Positions 1 to 34,305 of a DNA stretch of 40,900 nt are shown here, piece after piece. The notes under the pieces are model-generated. The model saw nothing but the letters and a program-made list of their open reading frames with translations. It did not search any database and was not told the origin of the DNA. The stretch comes from Bacteroidota bacterium. Its GTDB lineage: Bacteria; Bacteroidota; Bacteroidia; 2-12-FULL-35-15. Position numbers and translations under genes: made by a program. Where the stretch lies: assembly GCA_947504725.1 (NCBI GenBank), contig CANNHN010000014.1, positions 1 through 40,900 of the forward strand. The letters run 5' to 3'. Every line of letters begins with the position of its first letter. Position 1 is the first letter of the stretch.

Positions 1-3000
1 GGTGCATTTCCACCAAGTGTTGCTGTTGTTGTACACACAATTTGATCTGGACCGGCAGCAGAAGTAGTAGGAGGTGTGTCACGGAAAATCGTAATATCAT
101 CTGTTGATGGTGTACACACACCATTAGAAATTGTCCAGCGGAAAGTATTCACTCCTAAACTTAAACCTGTCACACCTGATGTTGGTGATGTTGGTGTTGT
201 CACAACACCAGTTCCCGCAATAACGGTCCATGCGCCTGTTCCAACTGTTGGTGTATTTCCTGCAAGCGTTGCAATAGTAGTACAAAGTGATTGATCAGGA
301 CCTGCGGCTGATACTGTTGGGAAAAATAAACGATCAATAGTAATGTCATCAAAAGAAGGAGTACAAGTTCCATTAGAAATTGTCCAGCGGAAAGTATTGA
401 TTCCAAAACTTAATCCGGTCACGCCTGATGTTGGTGATGTCGGAGTTGTCACCACACCCGTTCCCGCAACGACAGTCCAAAATCCAGTTCCAACGGTTGG
501 TGCATTTCCTGCAAGTGTTGCAGTAGTTGTACAAACAATTTGATCAGGACCAGCAGCAGAAGTCGTTGGAGGTGTATCACGGAAAATAGTAATGTCATCT
601 GTTGATGGTGTACACACACCATTAGAGATTGTCCAACGGAAAGTATTTATGCCTAAACTTAAACCTGTTACACCCGAAGTAGGAGATGCAGGAGTAGTAA
701 CAACCCCCGTTCCAGCAATAACAGTCCACGCGCCAGTTCCAACAGTAGGTGTATTTCCTGCAAGTGTTGCAGTGGTAGTACAATGTGTTTGATCAGGACC
801 AGCAGCAGAAACTGTTGGGAAGTCTTGACGATTGATTACGATATCATCAATTGAATTGGCGCAAGTTCCATTAGAAATCGTCCATCGGAAGGTATTCACG
901 CCAACAATTAATCCTGTAACTCCAGACGTAGGTGATGAAGGTGTTGTAACGGTTGCTGAACCAGTCACCACAGTCCAAAATCCTGTTCCAACAGTTGGTG
1001 TATTTCCTGCAAGTGTAGCAATGGTAGTACAAACAATTTGATCTGGTCCAGCAGCAGAAGTAGTAGGAGGTGTATCGCGGAAAATCGTAATGTCATCTGT
1101 AGAAGGCGTACACACACCATTAGAAATTGTCCAACGGAATGTATTCACACCAAGACTTAAACCTGTTACACCAGAAGAAGGGGCTGTTGGAGTTGTTACA
1201 ACTCCTGTACCTGCAATTACCGACCAAGCTCCTGTCCCTACAATTGGCGTATTGCCGGATAGGATAGCAGTTGTTGCACAAATTGTTTGGTCAGGACCAG
1301 CAGCTGCAACTGTTGGTAACACTAATCTGTCAATAATAATATCATCAATTGAAGGAGCACATGTTCCATTAGAAATTGTCCATTGGAAAGTATTAATTCC
1401 AAAACTTAATCCGGTGACTCCAGAAGAAGGAGAAGTTGGAGTAGTCACAACCGCAGAACCCGTCACAACTGTCCAAAACCCCGTTCCAACAGTCGGCACA
1501 TTTCCTGCAAGCGTTGCAATTGTTGCACACACAATTTGATCAGGACCAGAAGCAGAAGTAGTAGGAGGTGTATCACGGAAAATGGTAATGTCATCGGTTG
1601 AAGGAGTACATACACCATTCGAGATTGTCCAGCGGAAAGTATTCACACCAAGACTTAAACCTGTTACACCAGAAGTAGGAGATGTTGGAGTTGTCACCAC
1701 ACCAGTTCCAGCAATAACGGTCCACGCGCCTGTTCCAACAGTCGGTGCATTTCCAGCAAGCGTTGCAGTGGTAGAACAAAGTATTTGATCAGGACCTGCA
1801 GCAGAAACTGTTGGGAAGTCTTGACGATTTATTGTTACAGCGTCAATTGAAGGAGCGCATGTTCCGTTCGAAATTGTCCAGAAGAAAGTATTTAAACCAA
1901 CACTCAATCCAGTTACTGTAGAAGTAGGAGAAGTCGGTGTTGTGATAACGCCTGTGCCAGAGACAACAGTCCATAGGCCTGTTCCAGTTATTGGCGGGTT
2001 TCCTGCAAGTGTAACAGTTGTTGCGCAAATAGTTTGATCCGGTCCAGCAGCAGAAGTTGTAGGAGGAGTATCAAGGAAAATGGTCACATCATCTGTTGAT
2101 GGAATACAAACACCATTCGAAATTGTCCATCGGAAAGTATTTACACCAAGACTTAATCCTGTCACACCAGAAGTAGGAGACGTAGGCGTAGTAACTACAC
2201 CCGTTCCCGCAATAACGGTCCACGCACCAGTTCCAACTGTTGGTGCATTTCCTGCAAGCGTTGCAGTGGTTGTACATAATGTTTGGTCAGGACCTGCAGC
2301 AGAAACTGTTGGGAAGTCTTGACGAGTTATTGTAACATCATCAAAAGAAGAAGTACACGTTCCATTAGAGATTGTCCATCGAAATGTATTCACACCCACA
2401 CTCAATCCTGTAATACCAGAGAATGGTGATGAAGGGGTAGTTACAACTCCTGTTCCTGCAATGACCGTCCATATACTTGTTCCAACTAGAGGATTGTTTC
2501 CTGCTAATGTAGCTGTGAAGTCACATACTGTTTGATCTGTTCCGGCAGCAGCTGTGGTAGGAGGTGTGTCTCTGAAAATGGTTATGTCATCTGTTGTTGG
2601 CGTACAAACACCATTAGAAATTGTCCATCGGAAAGTATTGATTCCAAAGCTTAACCCGGTAACTCCTGATGTAGAAGATGTTGGTGAAGTTACTGTGGCA
2701 CTCCCAGCAATAACCGTCCATGCGCCTGTTCCAACAGTAGGTGCGTTTCCTGCGAGTGTAGCAATTGTAACACAAAGCGTTTGGTCTGGGCCAGCAGTGG
2801 CAACAGTAGGAAAGTCGAAACGAGTAATCGTTATATTGTCGCTAGAAGGTGCACAAACACCATTCGAAATTCTCCATCGGAAGGTATTGACACCAACTGT
2901 TAAGCCGGTAACACCTGACGTTGGTGAGGTTGGAGTCGTTACAGTTGCTCCGCCTACAACTACCGTCCAAAGTCCTGTGCCTACAATTGGGTTGTTTCCA

Positions 3001-6000
3001 GCGAGTGTAGCAGTGGTAGCACAAACACTTTGATCGGGTCCAGCTGCAGAGGTAGTAGGAACTGCACTTCTGTTAATTGTGACATCATCAGTTGATGGAG
3101 CACAAACACCATTCGAGATTGTCCAGCGGAAAGTGTTTACGCCAACGCTTAAGCCTGTTACACCAGACGTTGGTGAAGCTGGAGTTGTAACCGTTGCTCC
3201 ACCTACTATGACGGTCCATGCACCCGTTCCGACAATAGGCGTATTTCCTGCAAGTGTCGCGACAGTTGCGCAAAGGTTTTGATCCGGTCCTGCAGCTGAA
3301 GTAGTAGGAACGTCACTTCTATTAATTGTTATATCGTCCGCAGAGGTTGCGCAAACACCATTTGAAATAGTCCATCTGAACGTATTCACACCTACCGTCA
3401 AACCCGTTACCCCAGATGTTGGTGAAGTTGGTGTTGTAACAGTTGCCCCGCCTGCAAGTACTGTCCAAGCGCCTGTTCCAATTGCAGGAGTATTTCCGGC
3501 AAGTGTTGCAATGGTTGCACAAAGGTTTTGATTAGGCCCAGCTGCAGAGGTAGTAGGAACTGCGTCTCGAGTTATAATAATGTCATCAGATGTAGGTGTA
3601 CAAACGCCACTTGTAATTGTCCAACGGAACGTATTTACACCAATTGTTAAACCAGTTACACCTGATGTTGGCGATGTTGGTGTCGTAACAGTTGCTCCGC
3701 CAGTGATGACTGTCCATGCGCCTATTCCTATCCCAGGAGCATTGCCGGCAAGCGTTGCAGTATTAGCACATAGTATTTGATCAGGACCAGCTGTTGCAGT
3801 TGTTCCAATTGGGTCAACAGTAATGTTTACTATATCTATGGATGGAGGACACGTTCCATTTGAAATTGTCCAAACAAAAGTATTCAAGCCAATGCTTAAG
3901 CCACTTACACCTGGTGTTGCAGATGTTGTGGACGTTAAAGTTCCTGTTCCTGCAGTAATAGTCCAAAGCCCAGATCCAACAATCGGAATATTTCCATTTA
4001 AAACTGAAGCAGTTGAACAAATAGTTGAATCGAATCCGGCATTTGCTACTGTTGGTGTTGGATCAATTGTAATGTCAACTGCATCGCTTGATGCGGGACA
4101 TGTTCCATTTGAAATCGTCCAAACAAAAGTATTTACTCCTACACTAAGTCCTGTTACACCAGAAGTTCCTAAACTCGGGGTTGTCACAGTACCGCTACCA
4201 GCAGTTACCGTCCAGTTGCCTGTTCCGACAACTGCTGTATTTCCATTTAAAGTTGTAGATGATGAACACAATGTCACATCACTTCCTGCAGCTGCTACCG
4301 TTGGGTTTTGGTCAACATTAATTGTAATGTCATCTGCTGATGGAGCGCAAGTTCCATTCGATATGGTCCATCTAAATGTATTTACACCGATACTTAATCC
4401 TGTTACTCCTGATGTTGGAGATGTTGGAGTTGTAACTGCACCAGAACCAGCAATAACAGTCCATGCGCCAGTGCCTGTCACAGGCGTGTTTCCGGCTAAT
4501 GTTGAAGATGATGAACATAGTGTTTGGTCTGCACCAGCAGTAGCTGTTGTTGGTGGAGTATCTCGAAAAATTGTAATGTCATCAGTTGATGGAGTACAAA
4601 TGCTATTCGAAATGGTCCATCTAAATGTGTTGGTTCCAAAACTCAATCCGGTTATTCCAGAGGTTGGTGACGTAGGAGTTGTAACCGTTGCGGATCCAGC
4701 AATAACAGTCCAAGCACCCGTTCCAACGCCAGGAGTATTTCCTGCTAATGTTGCAGTTGTAGTACAAAGTGTTTGATCTGGTCCAGCTGCAGATGTTGTT
4801 GGGAAAGGCAGTCGAGTAATTGTTATATCATCTGTTGAAGGCGGACAAACACCATTTGAAATTGTCCAACGGAAAATATTTACACCAACGCTCAATCCCG
4901 CAACAGGTGAGCCAGGAGCAGAAGGGGCAGTAACACTTCCTGTTCCAGCAATAACGGTCCAAACTCTAGAACCAATTGCTGGAAGATTTCCAGCAAGAGT
5001 TGCAGTAGTAGCACAAACGGTTTGGTCAGGTCCAGCAGCAGCAGTAGTGGGAGCAGCATCACGATTAATAATTACATCATCAATTGAAGAAGGACAGGTG
5101 CTATACGAAATCGTCCAACGGAAAGTGTTTACACCAATACTTAAACCAGTTACACCTGACGTTGGAGAAGTTGGAGTTGTAATAGTTGCTCCCCCAGAAA
5201 TAACTGTCCACAAACCGCTACCAACAGTTGGAACATTTCCTGCAAGAGTTGCCGAAGCCGAACATACTGTTTGGTCAGGCCCTGCAGCGGACGTTGTTGG
5301 AAAATCAAGTCGGTTAACAATTATATCATCTGTTGAAGGCGTGCAAATTCCATTTGTTATTGTCCAGCGAAAAGTATTCACACCTACACTTAAACCTGTT
5401 ACTCCAGTTGTAGGGGATAACGGTGTCGTTATAATTCCAGTACCCGAAATCACAGTCCATATTCCAGTTCCTACAGTTGCTGTATTTCCAACAATTGTAG
5501 AAGTTGTGGTACATACTGTTTGGTCAAGTCCTGCATCAGCAATTGTTGGAACATCATAACGATTAATAGTTATATCATCTATTGATGGAGAACAAACTAC
5601 TCCATTTGAAATCGTCCATCTGAACGTATTAAGTCCAATACTTAAACCCGTAACACCGGAAGTAGGAGAAGTAGTAGTTGTAACTGTTCCTGAGCCTGCA
5701 ATAACCGTCCAAGCGCCTGTTCCAACTGTTGGTGTATTTGCAGCAAGTGTTGCCACTGCTGTAGCACAAATGGATTGGTCGGGACCTGCAGCAGAAGTAG
5801 TTGGTATTGCATCGCTAACGATGGTGACATCATTTGTTGAAGGAACACAAACTCCATTTGTTATTGTCCATCGGAATGTATTGACACCGACACTTAATCC
5901 TGTTACTCCGGATGTTGGCGAAGTAGGAGTTGTAACGGTTGCGGAACCTGCAATGACGGTCCAAGCACCTGTGCCAAAAGAAGGTGCATTTCCTGCAAGT

Positions 6001-6539
6001 GTTGCAGTTGGACCGCAAACAGCTTGGTCAGGACCAGCAGCTGAAACGGTTGGATTTGCATAATTTGTAATTGTAATATCATCCGTAGAAACAACGCAAG
6101 GTCCATTGGAGATGGTCCAGCGGAAAGTATTCACCCCGGTTGTGAGACCTGTTACTCCTGATGTTGGAGAACTTGGGGTGGTAACAGTTGCTGAACCTGC
6201 AATCACGGTCCACGCTCCCGTTCCTATTGCTGGAGTGTTTCCAGCCAAAGTGGCTGTAGGCGTGTTGCAAATACTTTGGTCGGGGCCAGCAGCAGATGTT
6301 GTAGGATTCGCATAACGAGTGATCGTAATATTATCAGTTGATGCTGCACAGCCAGGAGAACTATTTGAAATCGTCCAGCTGAAAGTATTTACTCCCACTA
6401 TTAATCCTGTGACGCCTGAAGTTGGTGAAGTAGGAGTTGTAACAGTAGCAGTTCCTGTAACAACTGTCCAAGCACCAGTGCCCACTGTAGGCGCGTTTCC
6501 TGCGAGGGTTGCGGTTGTTAACGCGCAAATACTTTGATC
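1..6539 (-). repeat. Tandem 249-bp (83-residue) coding repeat array
   Basis: The Asp-Gln (or equivalent Asp) that opens each unit can be marked 27 times: Asp codons lie at 45-47, 294, 543, 792, 1041, 1290, 1539, 1788, 2037, 2286, 2535, 2784, 3033, 3282, 3531, 3780, 4029, 4278, 4527, 4776, 5025, 5274, 5523, 5778, 6027, 6279 and 6537. Spacing is exactly 249 bp for 22 consecutive intervals up to 5523; the four N-terminal intervals are 255, 249, 252 and 258. All differences are multiples of three. The units nearest the left edge are the most alike, those nearest the N-terminus the most diverged. The array continues beyond the window. Confidence 0.95.
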
Positions 6540-7682
6540 CGGACCAGCAGCGGAGGTGGTAGGATTAATACAAACTTCAGCTCCAACTGTAAAAAAGGTA
6601 GCTGGAGTATTCATCGTATTGTAGTTGGTGGTCATCCAGCCAGCTGACCTTACAACATTAGATATTCTAAGTTCGTCCAAGGAACCAATTAAATCTTGAG
6701 CTGCCGTATTCGGATCTTGGGCAATTCTAAAAGTATTGGAGCCACCGCCTGTTGGATCTTCTGTTGCTAAGTATGTAACAGCAGCTCCGCTTAGCGCTCC
6801 ATTAACATAAAAACGAACTTCATTTGCAGTTACGTTTCGCACCATGGCAATGTGTCTCCAAACGGTTACAGCTATACCTGAAGAAACAGTAGATATTATA
6901 TCTTTATCGGTTCCTGTACCATATTCCCAATAGGTTCGAAGTCTTAATGTGATGGCATCAAAAGAAAGATAATAGGAATAATTATCAGGAGTGCCTTCCG
7001 TTGCCCCACCACATGAGAATATTACATTATCTTTTGGTGTTGTTGTCGGTTGAATAGTATTCATTCTTACCCAACCTTCTAATGTTACATCCCCTGGAAT
7101 GGCTAACGTTGGATCAGGTGCACGAGTAAGCGATTGGCCTGCAGTAAATGCTTGGCCGTCTGCTATTCTTGCTCCTGGTAAATTAGCAGATCCAGCATTG
7201 GTCATGGTGTGTGTATTAGCTGTTGCATCAGGGGGATTCGCTCCATCGTTGTGTAAATGCCAAACAGCCTGATATTGCGCGTTCCACGTAGAAGTAACTG
7301 ATTGGTCGGCACTTATGGCGGTGTTTCCATAATACATTCTTATTACTGTAGTGGTTGAAAGCGAAGGTATCCTCACCCATGCAACCAATTGTCCTGTTGC
7401 ACCATTATAGAATTCTAATTGGTGGTCTAAAGGCGTAATTCCATCAGCTGCTGTAAATTTAATATCGTATCCATTTGTATTGCGCACATCTCCTAAAGGA
7501 ACTGTTCTTAAATCTGTATCGGTACGACTAACTAAAACAGGAAAGTTAGTGTGTGGTCCACCAACTACTTGAGCGGCAGTAACAGTAAGTATTTTATAAA
7601 ATGCATAACCAGGAAGTTGCGCGTAGGAAAGACCTACAAGCAACCATGAAATAAAAAAAAGTCCTAGTTTCTTACTAAACAT
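1..7682 (-). CDS. Giant secreted repeat protein (DUF2341 + LamG + tandem Ig/PKD-like repeats), 3' end outside window
   Basis: The frame is open without a stop from an ATG at 7682 to the left edge, so at least 2,560 residues are encoded and the C-terminus is missing. Residues 1-22 are a signal peptide ending SYAQ. Residues about 25-125 resemble DUF2341 (WVRIPSLS and YYGN at 117-120). Residues about 135-365 resemble a LamG jelly roll (LEGWVRMN, FYVNGAL, GSLDELRISNVVRS). From residue 382 the protein is an array of 83-residue units, each opening AGPDQ, then a Cys, ATLAGN, TGAWTV, SPTSGVTGL, NTFRWTISNG, a second Cys and DDITI. The two cysteines could pair within each unit. In Bacteroidota such proteins are usually exported adhesins or filament proteins with a T9SS type A or B sorting domain at the end, but that end is not visible. 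Function in adhesion is inference. The domain names rest on motifs, not a profile search. Confidence 0.9.
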   Translation of the reverse strand, partial: MFSKKLGLFFISWLLVGLSYAQLPGYAFYKILTVTAAQVVGGPHTNFPVLVSRTDTDLRTVPLGDVRNTNGYDIKFTAADGITPLDHQLEFYNGATGQLVAWVRIPSLSTTTVIRMYYGNTAISADQSVTSTWNAQYQAVWHLHNDGANPPDATANTHTMTNAGSANLPGARIADGQAFTAGQSLTRAPDPTLAIPGDVTLEGWVRMNTIQPTTTPKDNVIFSCGGATEGTPDNYSYYLSFDAITLRLRTYWEYGTGTDKDIISTVSSGIAVTVWRHIAMVRNVTANEVRFYVNGALSGAAVTYLATEDPTGGGSNTFRIAQDPNTAAQDLIGSLDELRISNVVRSAGWMTTNYNTMNTPATFFTVGAEVCINPTTSAAGPDQSICALTTATLAGNAPTVGTGAWTVVTGTATVTTPTSPTSGVTGLIVGVNTFSWTISNSSPGCAASTDNITITRYANPTTSAAGPDQSICNTPTATLAGNTPAIGTGAWTVIAGSATVTTPSSPTSGVTGLTTGVNTFRWTISNGPCVVSTDDITITNYANPTVSAAGPDQAVCGPTATLAGNAPSFGTGAWTVIAGSATVTTPTSPTSGVTGLSVGVNTFRWTITNGVCVPSTNDVTIVSDAIPTTSAAGPDQSICATAVATLAANTPTVGTGAWTVIAGSGTVTTTTSPTSGVTGLSIGLNTFRWTISNGVVCSPSIDDITINRYDVPTIADAGLDQTVCTTTSTIVGNTATVGTGIWTVISGTGIITTPLSPTTGVTGLSVGVNTFRWTITNGICTPSTDDIIVNRLDFPTTSAAGPDQTVCSASATLAGNVPTVGSGLWTVISGGATITTPTSPTSGVTGLSIGVNTFRWTISYSTCPSSIDDVIINRDAAPTTAAAGPDQTVCATTATLAGNLPAIGSRVWTVIAGTGSVTAPSAPGSPVAGLSVGVNIFRWTISNGVCPPSTDDITITRLPFPTTSAAGPDQTLCTTTATLAGNTPGVGTGAWTVIAGSATVTTPTSPTSGITGLSFGTNTFRWTISNSICTPSTDDITIFRDTPPTTATAGADQTLCSSSSTLAGNTPVTGTGAWTVIAGSGAVTTPTSPTSGVTGLSIGVNTFRWTISNGTCAPSADDITINVDQNPTVAAAGSDVTLCSSSTTLNGNTAVVGTGNWTVTAGSGTVTTPSLGTSGVTGLSVGVNTFVWTISNGTCPASSDAVDITIDPTPTVANAGFDSTICSTASVLNGNIPIVGSGLWTITAGTGTLTSTTSATPGVSGLSIGLNTFVWTISNGTCPPSIDIVNITVDPIGTTATAGPDQILCANTATLAGNAPGIGIGAWTVITGGATVTTPTSPTSGVTGLTIGVNTFRWTITSGVCTPTSDDIIITRDAVPTTSAAGPNQNLCATIATLAGNTPAIGTGAWTVLAGGATVTTPTSPTSGVTGLTVGVNTFRWTISNGVCATSADDITINRSDVPTTSAAGPDQNLCATVATLAGNTPIVGTGAWTVIVGGATVTTPASPTSGVTGLSVGVNTFRWTISNGVCAPSTDDVTINRSAVPTTSAAGPDQSVCATTATLAGNNPIVGTGLWTVVVGGATVTTPTSPTSGVTGLTVGVNTFRWRISNGVCAPSSDNITITRFDFPTVATAGPDQTLCVTIATLAGNAPTVGTGAWTVIAGSATVTSPTSSTSGVTGLSFGINTFRWTISNGVCTPTTDDITIFRDTPPTTAAAGTDQTVCDFTATLAGNNPLVGTSIWTVIAGTGVVTTPSSPFSGITGLSVGVNTFRWTISNGTCTSSFDDVTITRQDFPTVSAAGPDQTLCTTTATLAGNAPTVGTGAWTVIAGTGVVTTPTSPTSGVTGLSLGVNTFRWTISNGVCIPSTDDVTIFLDTPPTTSAAGPDQTICATTVTLAGNPPITGTGLWTVVSGTGVITTPTSPTSTVTGLSVGLNTFFWTISNGTCAPSIDAVTINRQDFPTVSAAGPDQILCSTTATLAGNAPTVGTGAWTVIAGTGVVTTPTSPTSGVTGLSLGVNTFRWTISNGVCTPSTDDITIFRDTPPTTSASGPDQIVCATIATLAGNVPTVGTGFWTVVTGSAVVTTPTSPSSGVTGLSFGINTFQWTISNGTCAPSIDDIIIDRLVLPTVAAAGPDQTICATTAILSGNTPIVGTGAWSVIAGTGVVTTPTAPSSGVTGLSLGVNTFRWTISNGVCTPSTDDITIFRDTPPTTSAAGPDQIVCTTIATLAGNTPTVGTGFWTVVTGSATVTTPSSPTSGVTGLIVGVNTFRWTISNGTCANSIDDIVINRQDFPTVSAAGPDQTHCTTTATLAGNTPTVGTGAWTVIAGTGVVTTPASPTSGVTGLSLGINTFRWTISNGVCTPSTDDITIFRDTPPTTSAAGPDQIVCTTTATLAGNAPTVGTGFWTVVAGTGVVTTPTSPTSGVTGLSFGINTFRWTISNGTCTPSFDDITIDRLFFPTVSAAGPDQSLCTTIATLAGNTPTVGTGAWTVIAGTGVVTTPTSPTSGVTGLSLGVNTFRWTISNGVCTPSTDDITIFRDTPPTTSAAGPDQIVCTTTATLGGNA

Positions 7683-21518: not shown

Positions 21519-21573
21519 CTTCGACTCCGCTCAGTGTGGCGTCTGTGATGTCACCCTGAGCGGAGTCGAAGGG
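21519..21573. repeat. Palindromic dispersed-type element with 16-bp perfect arms
   Basis: CTTCGACTCCGCTCAG (21519-21534) is the exact reverse complement of 21556-21571, with a 21-nt spacer. The right arm belongs to a 25-nt unit (21549-21573, starting TGTCACCCTGAGCGGAG) that recurs with one difference at 26661-26685. It lies 23 bp past the stop of the esterase gene and may act as its terminator. Confidence 0.85.
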
Positions 21574-23921: not shown

Positions 23922-25139
23922 CTAAAAATCCTTATACAACAAATACTTTTTCCTAACTAATTTGAATTTTGCAATTCCTGGTTCCCAACTTTTGCGAATC
24001 ACTTCTTCTTTTACTCCGTCTTTTATTTGTTGTTGCAATGTGGCATTTCCTGCGTGAAAATTAAAGTTTTCATCAAAGAATTTTGTTTTGTCTGCTGTAT
24101 TGGAATAGGTTCCCATTAGCCAAAACAAATATATTTTCTTTGCATCCTTCATGTATTCTTTTCCAAACTCTGAAAGATTATGCCCTTTACATTCAATTCC
24201 TTTGTACTTCGGTTCCATTGCTCCAGGCTTTGGTTGTGGCGTAAATTTATAATTCGCTTTTTCTAAAACCGGACTTCCAATAACTTGAAATGGTAAATCA
24301 CTTCCTCTTCCTACCGAAATTTGTGTGCCTTCAAACAATCCTAAACTCGGATATAAATAAATAGAACTCATGTTAGGTAAATTTGGTGAAGGACGAATAC
24401 CTAGCTCAAACATATCCTTGTGTTCGTATCCAATTATTGAAATTACTTTCAAATTGCATTTCACTCCGCCTTTCAACCAACCTTCACCATTAATCATTTG
24501 CGCGTATTCTCCAATCGTCATTCCGTAAACAATTGGAACTGGATGCAATCCTAAAAACGATTTGTAAGCATCTTCCAAAATGGGTCCATCTATATAATGG
24601 CCGTTTGGATTAGGGCGATCCAATACAATTACTTGTTTGTTGTTTTCTGCACATGCTTCCATCACATAATGCAACGTGGATAAATAAGTATAAAAACGCA
24701 CGCCTACATCTTGAATATCAAAAATCACAACATCTACATCTTTTAAATCAGTTGCAGATGGTTTTTTGTTTTTTCCATAAAGCGAAATAATACTCAATCC
24801 TGTTTTTGAATCTTTTTCGGTGGCTACTTTTTCGCCCGCATCCACTAATCCACGAAAACCATGTTCCGGACAAAATACTTTTTTAACGGAGACTTTTAAA
24901 GAAATAAGACTATCAACTAAATGAGTGTTTTTGATAATAGACGATTGATTGGCAACAATAGCAACCGATTTGTTTTTAAGTAATGGAAGGTATTCGTTTG
25001 TTTGGTATGCTCCAACTTTTAAGTCGTTAATCGTTTTTACAACCGTTTCTATTTGAGTAATGCCTTGTGCGTTTGCTAGTGATGTAAAGAGAAATAGAGT
25101 AACGATTGTAAAGATTTCTCGGCAAGCTCGAAAGGACAT
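23922..25139 (-). CDS. DUF1343/NamZ-like exo-beta-N-acetylmuramidase
   Basis: Secreted enzyme of the DUF1343 (NamZ, GH171) family, whose characterised member releases MurNAc from the non-reducing end of peptidoglycan fragments, so a role in wall turnover is likely. Hallmarks are VFCPEHGFRG and DAGEKV, DVDVVIFDIQDVGVRFYTYL, VLDRPNP with GPIL, PIVYGMTIGEYA, and RPSPNLPNM with LFEGTQISVGRG. Several start codons exist: TTG at 25214, ATG at 25178, 25151 and 25139. I chose 25139 because it gives a normal 24-residue signal peptide ending LANAQ and leaves a leader after a weak promoter-like site at 25189-25196; 25178 is the main alternative. The signal-peptide start lies inside a palindromic dispersed element (25110-25173). 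Probable operon with the oxidoreductase gene. Confidence 0.88.
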   Translation of the reverse strand: MSFRACREIFTIVTLFLFTSLANAQGITQIETVVKTINDLKVGAYQTNEYLPLLKNKSVAIVANQSSIIKNTHLVDSLISLKVSVKKVFCPEHGFRGLVDAGEKVATEKDSKTGLSIISLYGKNKKPSATDLKDVDVVIFDIQDVGVRFYTYLSTLHYVMEACAENNKQVIVLDRPNPNGHYIDGPILEDAYKSFLGLHPVPIVYGMTIGEYAQMINGEGWLKGGVKCNLKVISIIGYEHKDMFELGIRPSPNLPNMSSIYLYPSLGLFEGTQISVGRGSDLPFQVIGSPVLEKANYKFTPQPKPGAMEPKYKGIECKGHNLSEFGKEYMKDAKKIYLFWLMGTYSNTADKTKFFDENFNFHAGNATLQQQIKDGVKEEVIRKSWEPGIAKFKLVRKKYLLYKDF

Positions 25140-25173
25140 GCTAATGGGCATTGTTATTATAAAACGAGAGATC
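25110..25173. repeat. Palindromic dispersed-type element overlapping the NamZ start region
   Basis: Read on the minus strand, 25138-25110 (TGTCCTTTCGAGC... then GAGAAATCTTT) closely matches the unit at 28104-28133. Its partner arm at 25165-25173 (CGAGAGATC) pairs with 25113-25121 at 8 of 9 positions. It supplies the codons of the signal-peptide n-region of the NamZ-like gene. Confidence 0.65.
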
Positions 25174-25197
25174 AACATTCTTTTAATTCTAAAATAG

Positions 25198-25205
25198 TAT
25201 TTTTG
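25198..25205 (+). promoter_or_regulatory. Candidate -7 element (TATTTTTG) for the LolC/E-type permease
   Basis: TATTTTTG matches TAnnTTTG and ends 33 bp before the TTG start at 25239, leaving a leader of about 28 nt. Confidence 0.45.
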
Positions 25206-26635: not shown

Positions 26636-26686
26636 CCCTTCGATAAACAAAAAATTAAATTGTCACCTTGAGCGGAGTCGAAGGGC
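26635..26686. repeat. Dispersed repeat unit and hairpin in the cystathionine beta-synthase leader
   Basis: 26661-26685 repeats 21549-21573 with one difference in 25. Its end (TCGAAGGGC, 26678-26686) pairs with GCCCTTCGA at 26635-26643 over 9 bp with a 34-nt loop. The element ends 15 bp before the ATG. Confidence 0.75.
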
Positions 26687-28071: not shown

Positions 28072-28103
28072 ACTTTTCATTGCTAACTGAAATGCTCCTT
28101 GTT

Positions 28104-28190
28104 TGTCATTTCGACCGAAGTGGAGAAATCTTTCAAAATGTAATACTAAATACGAATGAAAAAGTTCTCTCCACTTCTGTAGAGATGACA
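28104..28190. repeat. Imperfect inverted repeat with 30-bp arms (TGTCATTTCGACC family)
   Basis: Arm 28104-28133 and the reverse complement of 28161-28190 match at 25 of 30 positions around a 27-nt centre. It sits between two plus-strand genes, 32 bp after the first, and may terminate transcription. The same family is seen at 25110-25173. Confidence 0.75.
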
Positions 28191-28215
28191 TTTTGCTATA
28201 ATCAAACTTTAAACT

Positions 28216-31608: not shown

Positions 31609-34305
31609 ATGAATCAATACGTAATTTATTTAGTGCCCGCTTTAGGGATTTTAGGATTGTTAGTAATGGCAATTAAATCGGCTTGGGTTACTAAGCAAGA
31701 TGCTGGAGATAAAAACATGCAAGAACTTGCTGGTTATATTGCTGATGGTGCAATGGCATTTTTAAAAGCAGAATGGAAAGTGTTAAGTATTTTCGTTGTT
31801 TTTGCAGCAGCGTTATTAGCTTATTCAGGAACTATTCATGAAATAAACGGTAAAGAGATTCACGGTAGTTGGATAATTGCTATTGCATTTATAATAGGAG
31901 CTGTTTTTTCTGCAACAGCTGGATATATAGGAATGAAAGTAGCAACTAAAGCAAATGTTCGTACAACGCAAGCTGCTAAAACAAGTTTAAAACAAGCATT
32001 GAAAGTTTCTTTCACTGGTGGAACTGTAATGGGATTGGGTGTTGCTGGTTTAGCTGTATTAGGTTTAGGAAGTTTATTTATAGTTTTCTTGAAAATATTC
32101 AATGTCGTTACTGTAGATAGTAATGAAATGAAAACTGCAATTGAAGTTTTGACTGGATTCTCTCTTGGAGCTGAGTCGATTGCCTTATTTGCACGTGTTG
32201 GTGGCGGTATTTATACAAAAGCTGCTGACGTTGGAGCTGATTTAGTTGGTAAAGTTGAAGCTGGTATTCCAGAAGATGATGTTCGTAATCCTGCAACTAT
32301 TGCAGATAACGTTGGTGATAACGTAGGTGATGTTGCTGGAATGGGTGCCGATTTATTTGGTTCTTATGTAGCAACAATATTAGCTACAATGGTATTGGGA
32401 CAAGAAATTAATGTAATAGATAATTTTGGTGGTATGTCGCCAATCCTTTTGCCAATGGTTATTTGTGGATTGGGAATCGTATTTTCAATCATAGGAACTT
32501 GGTTTGTTACAATTAAGGATGATAAGTCGAATGTTCAAAATGCTTTGAATCTTGGTAACTGGGCTTCCATGTTAATTACAGTTGTTGCCTCTTATTTTAT
32601 TGTAATGTATATGTTGCCTGATGGAGAAATTTCTTTACGTGGTTTTGTATTTACAAAAATGGGAGTGTTCGGTGCTATTTTAGTGGGAACTGTAGTAGGA
32701 GCAATTATGAGTATTGTAACGGAGTATTATACCGCAATGGGTAAGCCTCCAGTAAATTCTATTATTCAACAATCTTCTACTGGTCACGCTACAAATATTA
32801 TTGGTGGTTTAGCAGTTGGTATGAAATCAACCGTTATTCCAATTTTAACATTAGCAGCTGGAATCATGGGTTCATACTATTGTGCAGGACTATATGGTGT
32901 TGCAATTGCAGCAGCAGGTATGATGGCAACTACAGCTATGCAATTAGCAATTGATGCATTTGGTCCGATTGCAGATAACGCTGGTGGTATTGCAGAGATG
33001 AGTCAATTGCCTCCTGAAGTTCGTGAACGTACTGATAATTTAGATGCTGTTGGAAATACAACTGCAGCAACTGGAAAAGGTTTTGCTATTGCTTCTGCAG
33101 CTTTAACATCGTTAGCATTGTTTGCTGCGTTTGTTGGAATTGCAGGTATTGATGCTATCGATATATACAAAGCGCCTGTATTGGCAGGTTTATTTGTGGG
33201 TGCAATGATCCCATTTATTTTCTCTGCATTGTGTATTCAGGCAGTTGGTAAAGCTGCAATGGACATGGTTCAAGAAGTTAGACGTCAGTTTCGTGAAATT
33301 CCTGGTATCATGGAATACAAAGCAAAACCAGAATACGAAAAATGTGTTGCTATCTCTACAAAAGCATCTATCCGAGAAATGATGATGCCAGGAGCAATTG
33401 CATTAATTACCCCTTTAATTGTTGGTTTTACATTCGGTCCTGAAGTATTAGGAGGTTTATTGGCAGGTGTTACAGTATCTGGAGTGTTGATGGGAATTTT
33501 TCAATCAAATGCTGGTGGTGCTTGGGACAATGCAAAAAAATCTTTTGAAAAAGGTGTAATGATTAATGGTGAAATGTTCTACAAAAAATCAGAACCACAT
33601 AAAGCATCTGTTACAGGTGATACAGTTGGAGATCCTTTCAAGGATACTTCTGGACCATCTATGAACATCTTAATTAAATTAATGTCAATTGTTTCGTTGG
33701 TTATCGCTCCATACATAGCCGTAAATACTGCAGAGGCTGGAATGGGTTGTGAAGGCGATATGATGCAAACAGAATGTTGTGAAGGACATGGTGAAGAAAT
33801 GATGGAAGCTTGTCACGATGGTGGAAGTAAATGTGATATGACGAAATGTGCATCAATGAGCAAAGAACAATGTGCTGCTATGTGTGATTCAGTTGGTTGT
33901 ACTGCTGACGAAAAAGCATATTGTATGAGCATGTATGGCGCAGATGGAAAATTTGTTGGGCCGAAATGCGATATGAGCAAATGTATGAACATGAGCAAAG
34001 AAGCATGTGCTAAATATTGTGATTCAGTTGGATGTTCAGCAGAAGAAAAAGCAATGTGTGTAAAACATGCAGGTGCTGGTGAAGCGAAAGCTTGTTGCAA
34101 AGGACATGAAGAAGTGGCTCCAAAAGCTTGTTGCAAAGACAAAGCAATGGAAGCAAAAGCTTGTTGCAAAGACAAAGCTGCAGCTCACGGAAAAGCTTGT
34201 TCAGGTGAAGGTGATAAAGGTTGTGGTGGAGATTGCAAAAAAGGTTGTAAAACAAAAGAAGAATGTATGAAGTCTTGCGGAGAATCTTGCGCAAAGCATC
34301 ACTAA
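31609..34305 (+). CDS. hppA: Membrane proton/sodium-translocating pyrophosphatase with Cys-rich C-terminal extension
   Basis: Couples PPi hydrolysis to H+ and/or Na+ export across the inner membrane. Residues 1 to about 704 are a complete mPPase with the cytosolic active-site blocks [11 protein letters not shown] (207-217) and [17 protein letters not shown] (233-249), plus [10 protein letters not shown] with Ala486 and Gly489, the form typical of K+-dependent enzymes. H+ versus Na+ specificity cannot be read with certainty. The last helix ends near LVIAPYIAV (about 697-705). In the same frame follow about 190 residues with 29 cysteines, two 45-residue repeats (741-785 and 786-830) of pattern KCDMxKC-x(4)-SKExCA-x(2)-CDSVGC, then three KACCK units and a Gly/Lys/Cys-rich end. 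With 16 helices and standard topology, this tail would be in the periplasm. mPPases do not normally have such a tail. It may bind metal; function is inference. Confidence 0.95.
33829..34171 (+). repeat. Nested coding repeats in the hppA tail
   Basis: Two 135-bp units begin at 33829 and 33964. After the second, the 16-nt string AAAGCTTGTTGCAAAG occurs at 34087-34102, 34123-34138 and 34156-34171 (spacing 36 and 33 nt), each coding KACCK-type residues. The copies are still nearly identical at DNA level. Confidence 0.85.

Follow-up and report, generated by a model that had tools for sequence, protein, structure and literature searches.

Rickettsia palindromic elements (RPEs) were reportedly described in protein-coding genes by Ogata et al. 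in 2000. In the passages of two papers that deal with them, RPEs lie in frame within protein-coding genes of Rickettsia and are given a length of 105-146 bp (PMC2229807, PMC10969869). The CGTC-tagged REPs were defined by Di Nocera et al. 2013 (PMC3733652); according to the relevant parts of that paper, they occur in Bacteroidetes among five phyla, have no dedicated transposase and include intragenic copies. They are portrayed there with a CGTC tag that is often TGTC, a stem of 8-9 bp with A-T and T-A as first pairs, a loop of 4-5 nt, a tail that is mostly CCA and predominantly head-to-head dimers, and RPE-6 and RPE-4 of R. conorii are placed in this class. The same parts state, for P. putida, C. 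koseri and S. maltophilia, that many N-terminal REPs may be extragenic. A repeat has also been linked to a signal peptide: in the passages on YPO1552 of Yersinia pestis, the predicted signal peptide is partly formed by the repeat RU-2/YPAL (Delihas 2007, PMC2759123, PMC2229807).

The window, the whole stretch of 40,900 nucleotides that we analyzed, is contig C14 of a Bacteroidota genome (G000; 3.40 Mb, 99.63% complete) and encodes a NamZ-like protein of the exo-beta-N-acetylmuramidase family. A sequence-only reading of the window had proposed that a dispersed palindromic element was recruited into the signal-peptide coding region of this gene, with RPEs as the precedent. The precedent is apt: in G000, too, dispersed palindromic repeats lie in frame, within at least ten conserved genes that have Pfam support and are unrelated to one another. 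Unlike RPEs with their 105-146 bp, the coding insert is as a rule one unit of about 24-30 nt; its host is a Bacteroidota lineage and not an intracellular alphaproteobacterium, and most copies overlap no ORF of at least 90 codons. By this comparison, the NamZ-type repeat appears to work like an RPE but is not one.

As far as the description of CGTC-tagged REPs goes in the parts of PMC3733652 mentioned above, our repeats have in common with them the CGTC/TGTC tag, a stem of about 8 positions, two of which are mostly mismatched in ours, intragenic copies and the lack of a dedicated transposase. They differ in having a CT(T) tail instead of CCA, a usual loop that by our register is 6 nt instead of 4-5 nt, although 5 nt in the NamZ unit, a near-invariant tandem G.A in the stem, and A-type pairs that are mostly tail-to-tail. 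Judged from the sequence, what appears new against the precedents is that tag and habit match the CGTC-REPs, while tail and usual loop do not. RAYT-associated REPs, in the relevant part of PMC2817692, are likewise short palindromes in inverted pairs with compensatory stem changes, but G000 has no cognate Y1 transposase (PF01797). The YPO1552 case, as those passages present it, involves a 168-bp repeat in a putative exported protein, whereas here a short unit lies in two Pfam-supported proteins (NamZ and LolA), with orthologues that do not have the repeat and with different repeat types at the same site. In open-licence PMC text we found no description of such elements in Flavobacteriales, and the passages retrieved from it contained none of repeat-type exchange at one signal-peptide site. 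None of the papers listed from that text matched through the B-type strings or the two peptides, and those that matched did so through a 10-mer or a 12-mer and were unrelated by title.

The repeat family and its copy in the NamZ-like gene

The following features of the window are relevant.

23922..25178 (-): NamZ-like gene (exo-beta-N-acetylmuramidase family; Pfam PF07075 and PF20732), with an N-terminal signal peptide predicted by inspection
25112..25138 (-): A-type REP unit lying where the predicted NamZ signal peptide is encoded; it has a TGTC tag, a tandem G.A in its stem and a 5-nt loop
25137..25139 (-): candidate start ATG straddling the REP tag (A from the flank, TG from TGTC); its counterpart is the only ATG behind the motif in the relative G003
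25176..25178 (-): in-frame ATG at the ancestral start position, as judged by comparing relatives' 5' ends, 11 nt behind the promoter-like motif
25190..25199 (-): conserved promoter-like motif TACTATTTTA upstream of NamZ, exact in 22 of the 30 genus loci examined
28105..28131 (+): intergenic REP unit of the A-type that forms a tail-to-tail pair with the next
28161..28189 (-): the other A-type REP unit of this pair
21519..21540 (-): B-type REP unit of a head-to-head pair
21550..21571 (+): B-type REP unit (GTCACCCTGAGCGGAGTCGAAG), partner of 21519..21540 in the head-to-head pair
26662..26683 (+): B-type REP unit just upstream of a PALP/CBS-domain gene, in frame but upstream of the likely ATG 26701

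The NamZ-like protein passed the curated cut-offs of both Pfam families (268.1 bits for PF07075, cut-off 26.9; 93.5 bits for PF20732, cut-off 25). Its gene reads ATG TCC TTT CGA GCT TGC CGA GAA ATC TTT at 25110-25139 (-), which translates to MSFRACREIF, so the SFRACREIF noticed earlier at the start of the signal peptide is indeed encoded there. The A-type unit within it (25112-25138) reads TGTC CTTTCGAGCTTGCCGAGAAATCT; joined to the A that precedes it at 25139, it forms the ATG and encodes MSFRACREI(F). All six frames of this unit are stop-free. The earlier interval had extended to 25173, but 25140-25173 contains no clear second arm; a 9-nt near-inverse seen by eye (25165-25173) was not counted as evidence.

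A strict A-type pattern (TTTCGA-N3..14-GAGAAATCT) had 37 exact matches in the 3.40 Mb of G000 and none in the reversed genome that served as control, and the NamZ copy (25112-25133) was among the 37. Hence, the start region carries a copy of a dispersed family, as had been proposed, and the copy named at 28104-28190 belongs to the same family, as the tail-to-tail pair listed above. By BLAST, the best other copy of the NamZ unit was 84% identical over 50 nt of the query (E 3e-8), and 28090-28200 as query gave 72 matches at E up to 1. The family has two types in G000, the A-type (TGTCATTTCGA...GAGAAATCT) and the B-type (GTCACNCTGAGCGNAGTCGAAG), the latter with 69 exact matches, 107 with up to one mismatch and 0 in the control.

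The stem of the repeat was inferred from covariation, energy alone giving no support: the folding energies of four single units had z-scores of -0.44 to 0.75, no better than shuffles. For covariation we used 68 distinct A units and 78 distinct B units, after taking the 76 of 89 A matches that had the commonest length and removing duplicates from both sets. The register i+j=29 was the best of six, with stem positions 4-8 and 11 paired in 94% (A) and 87% (B) of cells; pairing in the five shifted registers was 21-73% (A) and 20-52% (B). In A units, pair 6-23 occurs as T-A, C-G, A-T and G-C, pair 7-22 as T-A, C-G and G-C, and pair 11-18 as C-G and G-C; pairs 5-24 and 6-23 of B units vary likewise. 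The paired fraction at five pairs was 0.974 (A) and 0.944 (B), compared with maxima of 0.874 and 0.844 in 1000 column shuffles, which ignore relatedness. A- and B-type units thus have one covarying hairpin in common. Two mismatches lie between its paired positions: 9.20 is G.A in 67 of the 68 A units and 75 of the 78 B units, and 10.19 is A.G in 62 and 77 of them, respectively. Tandem G.A steps of this kind can stack stably.

The tag is TGTC in 58 and CGTC in 4 of the 68 distinct A units, and TGTC in 39 and CGTC in 33 of the 78 B units. The first stem pair is A-T in 53/68 A units, followed by T-A in all 68; in B units the first is A-T in 39/78 and the second C-G in 57/78. In the NamZ unit of G000 this first pair is C.T, unlike the A-T of most A units. 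By the i+j=29 register the loop is 5 nt in the NamZ unit and 6 nt in 27-nt units, and the A-type tail is CT(T). Neighboring B units within 120 bp are head-to-head in 19 of 23 cases; the 28 A-A neighbors are 8 head-to-head, 17 tail-to-tail and 3 head-to-tail. The A consensus is stop-free in five of six frames and the B consensus in four, which read VTLSGVEG, CHPERSRR, PFDSAQGD and PSTPLRVT. A dense A-type cluster, nine matches in about 1 kb, lies at G000:C11 about 3000-3960 (L011). For the PALP/CBS-domain gene of the window, a TTG start at 26668 would add LSGVEGRKNYI, ATG 26701 being likelier.

We found no mobilizing enzyme in G000 by the PF01797 search, as this genome, 99.63% complete, had 0 matches to Y1_Tnp (PF01797) at E 0.001. 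PF01797 was over the cut-off in 28 of the 36 genus genomes. Of 23 Y1-gene loci in relatives, 15 of which came from a set of 18 stretches, one has a clear inverted A-type pair beside it (L080, G011:C264) and another a B-type unit (L084, G003), and none was clear in the rest. Mobilization by a RAYT was rejected on both grounds, the lack of PF01797 in G000 and units at only 2/23 Y1 loci of relatives, which is no general link.

The NamZ signal-peptide site across the genus

A NamZ search over the 36 genus genomes gave matches in 34. We compared the 5' ends of the 30 with loci examined, eleven of them as aligned DNA, in which the flanks and the motif are conserved and G000, G003, G027 and G009 have extra DNA. 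We read TACTATTTTA as a putative promoter motif in view of the -7 elements of Bacteroidota. Among 18 loci outside the clade of these four carriers with an exact motif, 16 have an in-frame ATG behind it and two do not. From this ATG to the mature G there are 22 codons in 15 of these relatives and 24 in one, compared with 38 in G000, 25 in G003, 54 in G027 and 49 in G009. The motif-to-ATG distance is 1-9 nt in the 16 relatives, 6, 10 and 9 nt in G003, G027 and G009, and 11 nt in G000, counted to 25178.

The repeat type at this homologous site differs: A-type in G000, G003 and G009, two B-type units in G027. In G003, the unit (G003:C5:6886-6912) is in the same place as in G000 with the same MSFRACREIF start, and the gene reads ...TACTATTTTA CAACCA ATGTCATTTCGAGCTTGCCGAGAAATCTTT..., so that no ATG other than that of the repeat follows the motif. 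In G027, two B-type units stand in tandem, the first directly behind CCATTTCGA, and this sequence may be a vestige of an A-type arm. The G009 sequence, AATGACCTTATTGTAAGGTCATTTCGAGCTTGTCGAGCAACA, has an A-type arm inside a different palindrome. The loop GCTTG(C/T)C is common to the NamZ units of G000, G003 and G009, and among the 37 exact matches in G000 it is unique to the NamZ copy. The same N-terminus was not found in relatives devoid of such repeats elsewhere, the observation that would speak against a recruited element; G003 has 10 A-type and 51 B-type exact matches elsewhere.

The earlier proposal that the insertion supplied both the n-region and the start codon holds in part. The extra DNA, present in one clade only, encodes the predicted n-region, and in G003 the repeat's ATG is the only usable one behind the motif. 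The start-codon part is not supported for G000, which retains an in-frame ATG at the ancestral position. Its in-frame ATGs are 25178, 25151 and 25139; in our judgement the first is probably the start, because leaders in the NamZ family are very short. Downstream of the unit, the NamZ genes of G000 and G003 have no in-frame ATG, GTG or TTG, and the unit must therefore be translated if NamZ has a usual start. Downstream alternatives are a TTG in G009, 12 codons before the mature part, and a GTG in G027, 17 codons before it.

In a tree of 30 NamZ proteins with signal peptides removed, the four carriers are on one side of a branch with support 95/92, found in 96% of 200 bootstrap trees. With shuffled labels, the carrier trait needs 3.9 changes on average. 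Within the clade G009 branches first, then G000; G003 and G027 are sisters with weak support (81/45), which makes the order of events at the NamZ site uncertain. We also scanned the best 80 NamZ loci from public genomes, nearly all of which are Bacteroidota according to their titles. Among these 5' ends, the unit was present only in L123 (JAHEYB010000005.1, isolate nzgw118), the same DNA as the G009 locus L050, and L125 (SXIH01000003.1, isolate F1-120-MAGs045), the same DNA as the G003 locus L048. Twelve of the 80 duplicate genus loci, leaving 98 distinct NamZ 5' ends with the repeat in four only. As these two carriers are MAGs of different isolate series, one assembly artefact is argued against. 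Nine other loci with a match (up to 2 mismatches) to the 10-nt left arm only were taken as chance.

Exact B-type copies number 69 in G000, 51 in G003, 71 in G009 and 56 in G027; none of the remaining 32 genomes has more than 8. The four carriers are one clade, therefore this coincidence of B-type load counts once, not four times. The A-type occurs more widely (74 in G001, 60 in G010, 28 in G000; at least one in 16/36 genomes). G001 and G010, with more A-type copies than G000, have ordinary NamZ signal peptides, so load alone does not bring insertion.

Repeat units in LolA and other genes

LolA (L232, G000:C1 about 530.8 kb) is a second signal-peptide case, its predicted n-region being a head-to-head B-type pair; the G000 protein reads MLKSNSNRPIFDSAQTDDKSDRHTERSRSVSLFLTTVLVLMLTTFAFAQ. 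Comparable repeat-bearing N-termini are present in G009 and G027, hence in 3/4 carriers, and the LolA signal peptides of G003, G034, G028 and G032 are of the plain MKK/MKR kind. Repeat presence is not uniform within the clade, as the LolA of G003 shows; the missing repeat there implies loss, replacement or transfer. The LolA start ATG overlaps the end of the upstream gene in three carriers. After the last unit, G009 LolA has no in-frame ATG, GTG or TTG, and the later start codons of G000 (GTG, ATG) and G027 (GTG) lie only in the hydrophobic core, 10-17 codons before the PAGYKP stretch.

With loose patterns, the G000 loci examined contain at least 89 A-type and at least 108 B-type matches, of which 68 and 94 overlap no ORF of at least 90 codons. 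Among the matches listed, at least 12 copies are in frame in at least ten Pfam-supported genes, NamZ included. The others in G000 are as follows.

Glycosyltransferase: two A units in a linker
AroA, MqnD, HemF and SpoU methylase: VTLSGVEG in each
GH3: PFDSAQGD
PDH E2 and ABC-F ATPase: TSTPLSVT and TSTTLSVT
LolA: two B units at the N-terminus

Five or six relatives were compared for each gene (five for SpoU, G027 left out; five for HemF, G034 left out; five for PDH E2, the split G034 gene left out). The repeat peptides of AroA, HemF, MqnD, SpoU and ABC-F are present in G000 only and missing from the orthologues compared. The loops concerned vary in length, with non-repeat segments of similar length in G034 AroA, G003 HemF and G027 ABC-F; in view of such other inserts at the same loops, these loops are simply variable. 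The HemF loop is variable at the repeat site, and in AroA this site coincides with an 8-residue gap in both PDB homologues shown. In the MqnD loop, G003 and G009 (L316, L317) have a third palindrome, CCTGCCTGCCGGACAGGCAGG, read LPAGQAG, where G000 has VTLSGVEG. The GH3 peptide is common to G000, G003 and, decayed, G009, the other relatives compared being without it, and that of PDH E2 is common to G000 and G009. The glycosyltransferase linker has one A unit in G003, B-like sequence in G027 and neither in G034 and G016.

A partial survey of G003 and G009 gave 61 and 87 B matches in the stretches examined, of which 49 and 79 overlap no ORF of at least 90 codons. In-frame units occur there in proteins with Pfam matches, among others TsaD, UvrA, Methyltransf_30, UvrD and arginyl-tRNA synthetase, whose orthologues are outside the comparison above. 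The count of ten genes for G000 leaves aside chance-like loose A-pattern matches in L092, L095, L267 and L276 and the second match in L004; terminal overlaps (the acyltransferase C-terminus in L004, the C-terminus in L085) and the unit that precedes the CBS gene (L009); and cases with no Pfam scan or spurious-looking ORFs (L011, L086, L088, the A match in L090, L094, L236, L249, L270, L300 and antisense ORFs).

Probable insertion, inferred turnover and alternative explanations

We consider it probable, at roughly 86%, that a REP inserted by the NamZ start in the ancestor of the four-genome clade, was read through and became the n-region of the signal peptide. A short TGTC/CGTC-tagged REP would have entered beside the start in the common ancestor of these four related Bacteroidota (Flavobacteriales-like) genomes. 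As most frames of the unit are stop-free and some contain arginines, the insert could be read through and might have become a Sec n-region, which the hydrophobic core and then the ANAQG region would follow. We infer from the sequence that NamZ would be exported with a repeat-bearing signal. The site would then have changed: to a single A-type unit supplying the start codon in G003, to two B-type units in G027, to an A-type arm in another palindrome in G009 and to an A-type unit downstream of the old start in G000.

That the coding sequence resembles the repeat by chance is scarcely credible even for a unit of only 27 nt: the strict pattern had 37 exact matches against 0 in the control, and the same unit is at the same place in G003 but missing from the other NamZ 5' ends scanned. 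We rejected a chance match on the reversed control and the specificity scan. An extragenic repeat, acting as a 5' UTR hairpin with translation beginning downstream of the unit, we judge very improbable. The parts of PMC3733652 noted above argue for such a position for most N-terminal REPs of several species, and two of our own N-terminal cases look so, an L-PSP (RidA-like) ORF in G003 (L354) and a GidB ORF in G009 (L415), in which the repeat is followed by an in-frame ATG and the Pfam domain begins further on; the GTG of G027 NamZ could also start a 17-codon N-terminus. It is hard to reconcile with the NamZ genes of G000 and G003, which have no usual start after the unit, with that of G009, whose TTG is only 12 codons before the mature protein, or with LolA, where no such codon follows the last unit in G009 and only codons inside the hydrophobic core do in G000 and G027.

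Several independent insertions into a permissive slot, in place of one ancestral insertion with turnover, are possible at clearly less than even odds. Repeat types and insert lengths differ among the four species, and elsewhere REPs sit in loops that vary between species. But the carriers are one clade, three of them have the NamZ-only loop in common, and G027 retains CCATTTCGA right before its first B-type unit, which looks like the remnant of an A-type arm. For the four NamZ cases, we favor a single insertion in the ancestor, followed by turnover, over several separate ones. Less likely again is that the unit is kept for its hairpin, as a transcript regulator or DNA element, its coding role being a tolerated side effect. 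Hairpins near a very short leader can affect initiation, and the unit is right behind such a leader. REPs elsewhere may act as RNA or DNA elements (PMC3733652, in the parts cited). On the other hand, C.T takes the place of the usual first A-T pair in the G000 unit, and G027 has retained an open coding frame with a different unit type.

With insertion and turnover as the preferred reading, REP units would land mostly between genes, and the openness of most frames would allow a few to persist in permissive coding sites. A unit beside a start codon would make an acceptable n-region if read in an arginine-bearing frame. Arginine-bearing frames (RHTERSRS, FRACREI) are found in predicted signal-peptide n-regions, and small polar ones (VTLSGVEG, TSTPLSVT, PFDSAQGD) in loops and linkers. 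Nothing here shows that the unit would improve the protein. It is a doubtful further step to regard the TGTC/CGTC-type REPs of this lineage as elements that repeatedly contribute segments to proteins, each unit offering different peptides in its several open frames. On this view, species would exchange units at fixed permissive sites, and the repeats would persist partly through their translatable sequence.

With empty-site relatives and a supported clade, this is a comparative case of a selfish-looking repeat joining conserved proteins in a Bacteroidota lineage, outside Rickettsia, from which such cases are best known. Some species carry these repeats in core genes, within signal peptides, loops and linkers, where sister species do not, which makes the question of neutral or useful insertion testable in this lineage. 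For annotators, the case suggests that N-terminal repeats are not always mis-called starts.

The window contains two further repetitive regions. A 249-bp unit is repeated in tandem at least 24 times at 1-6563, encoding a long repetitive protein with repeats of about 83 residues. Cysteine-rich repeated coding segments lie at 33829-34174, with two 90-nt copies and three copies of a GAAGCGAAAGCTTGTTGCAAAG-type unit.
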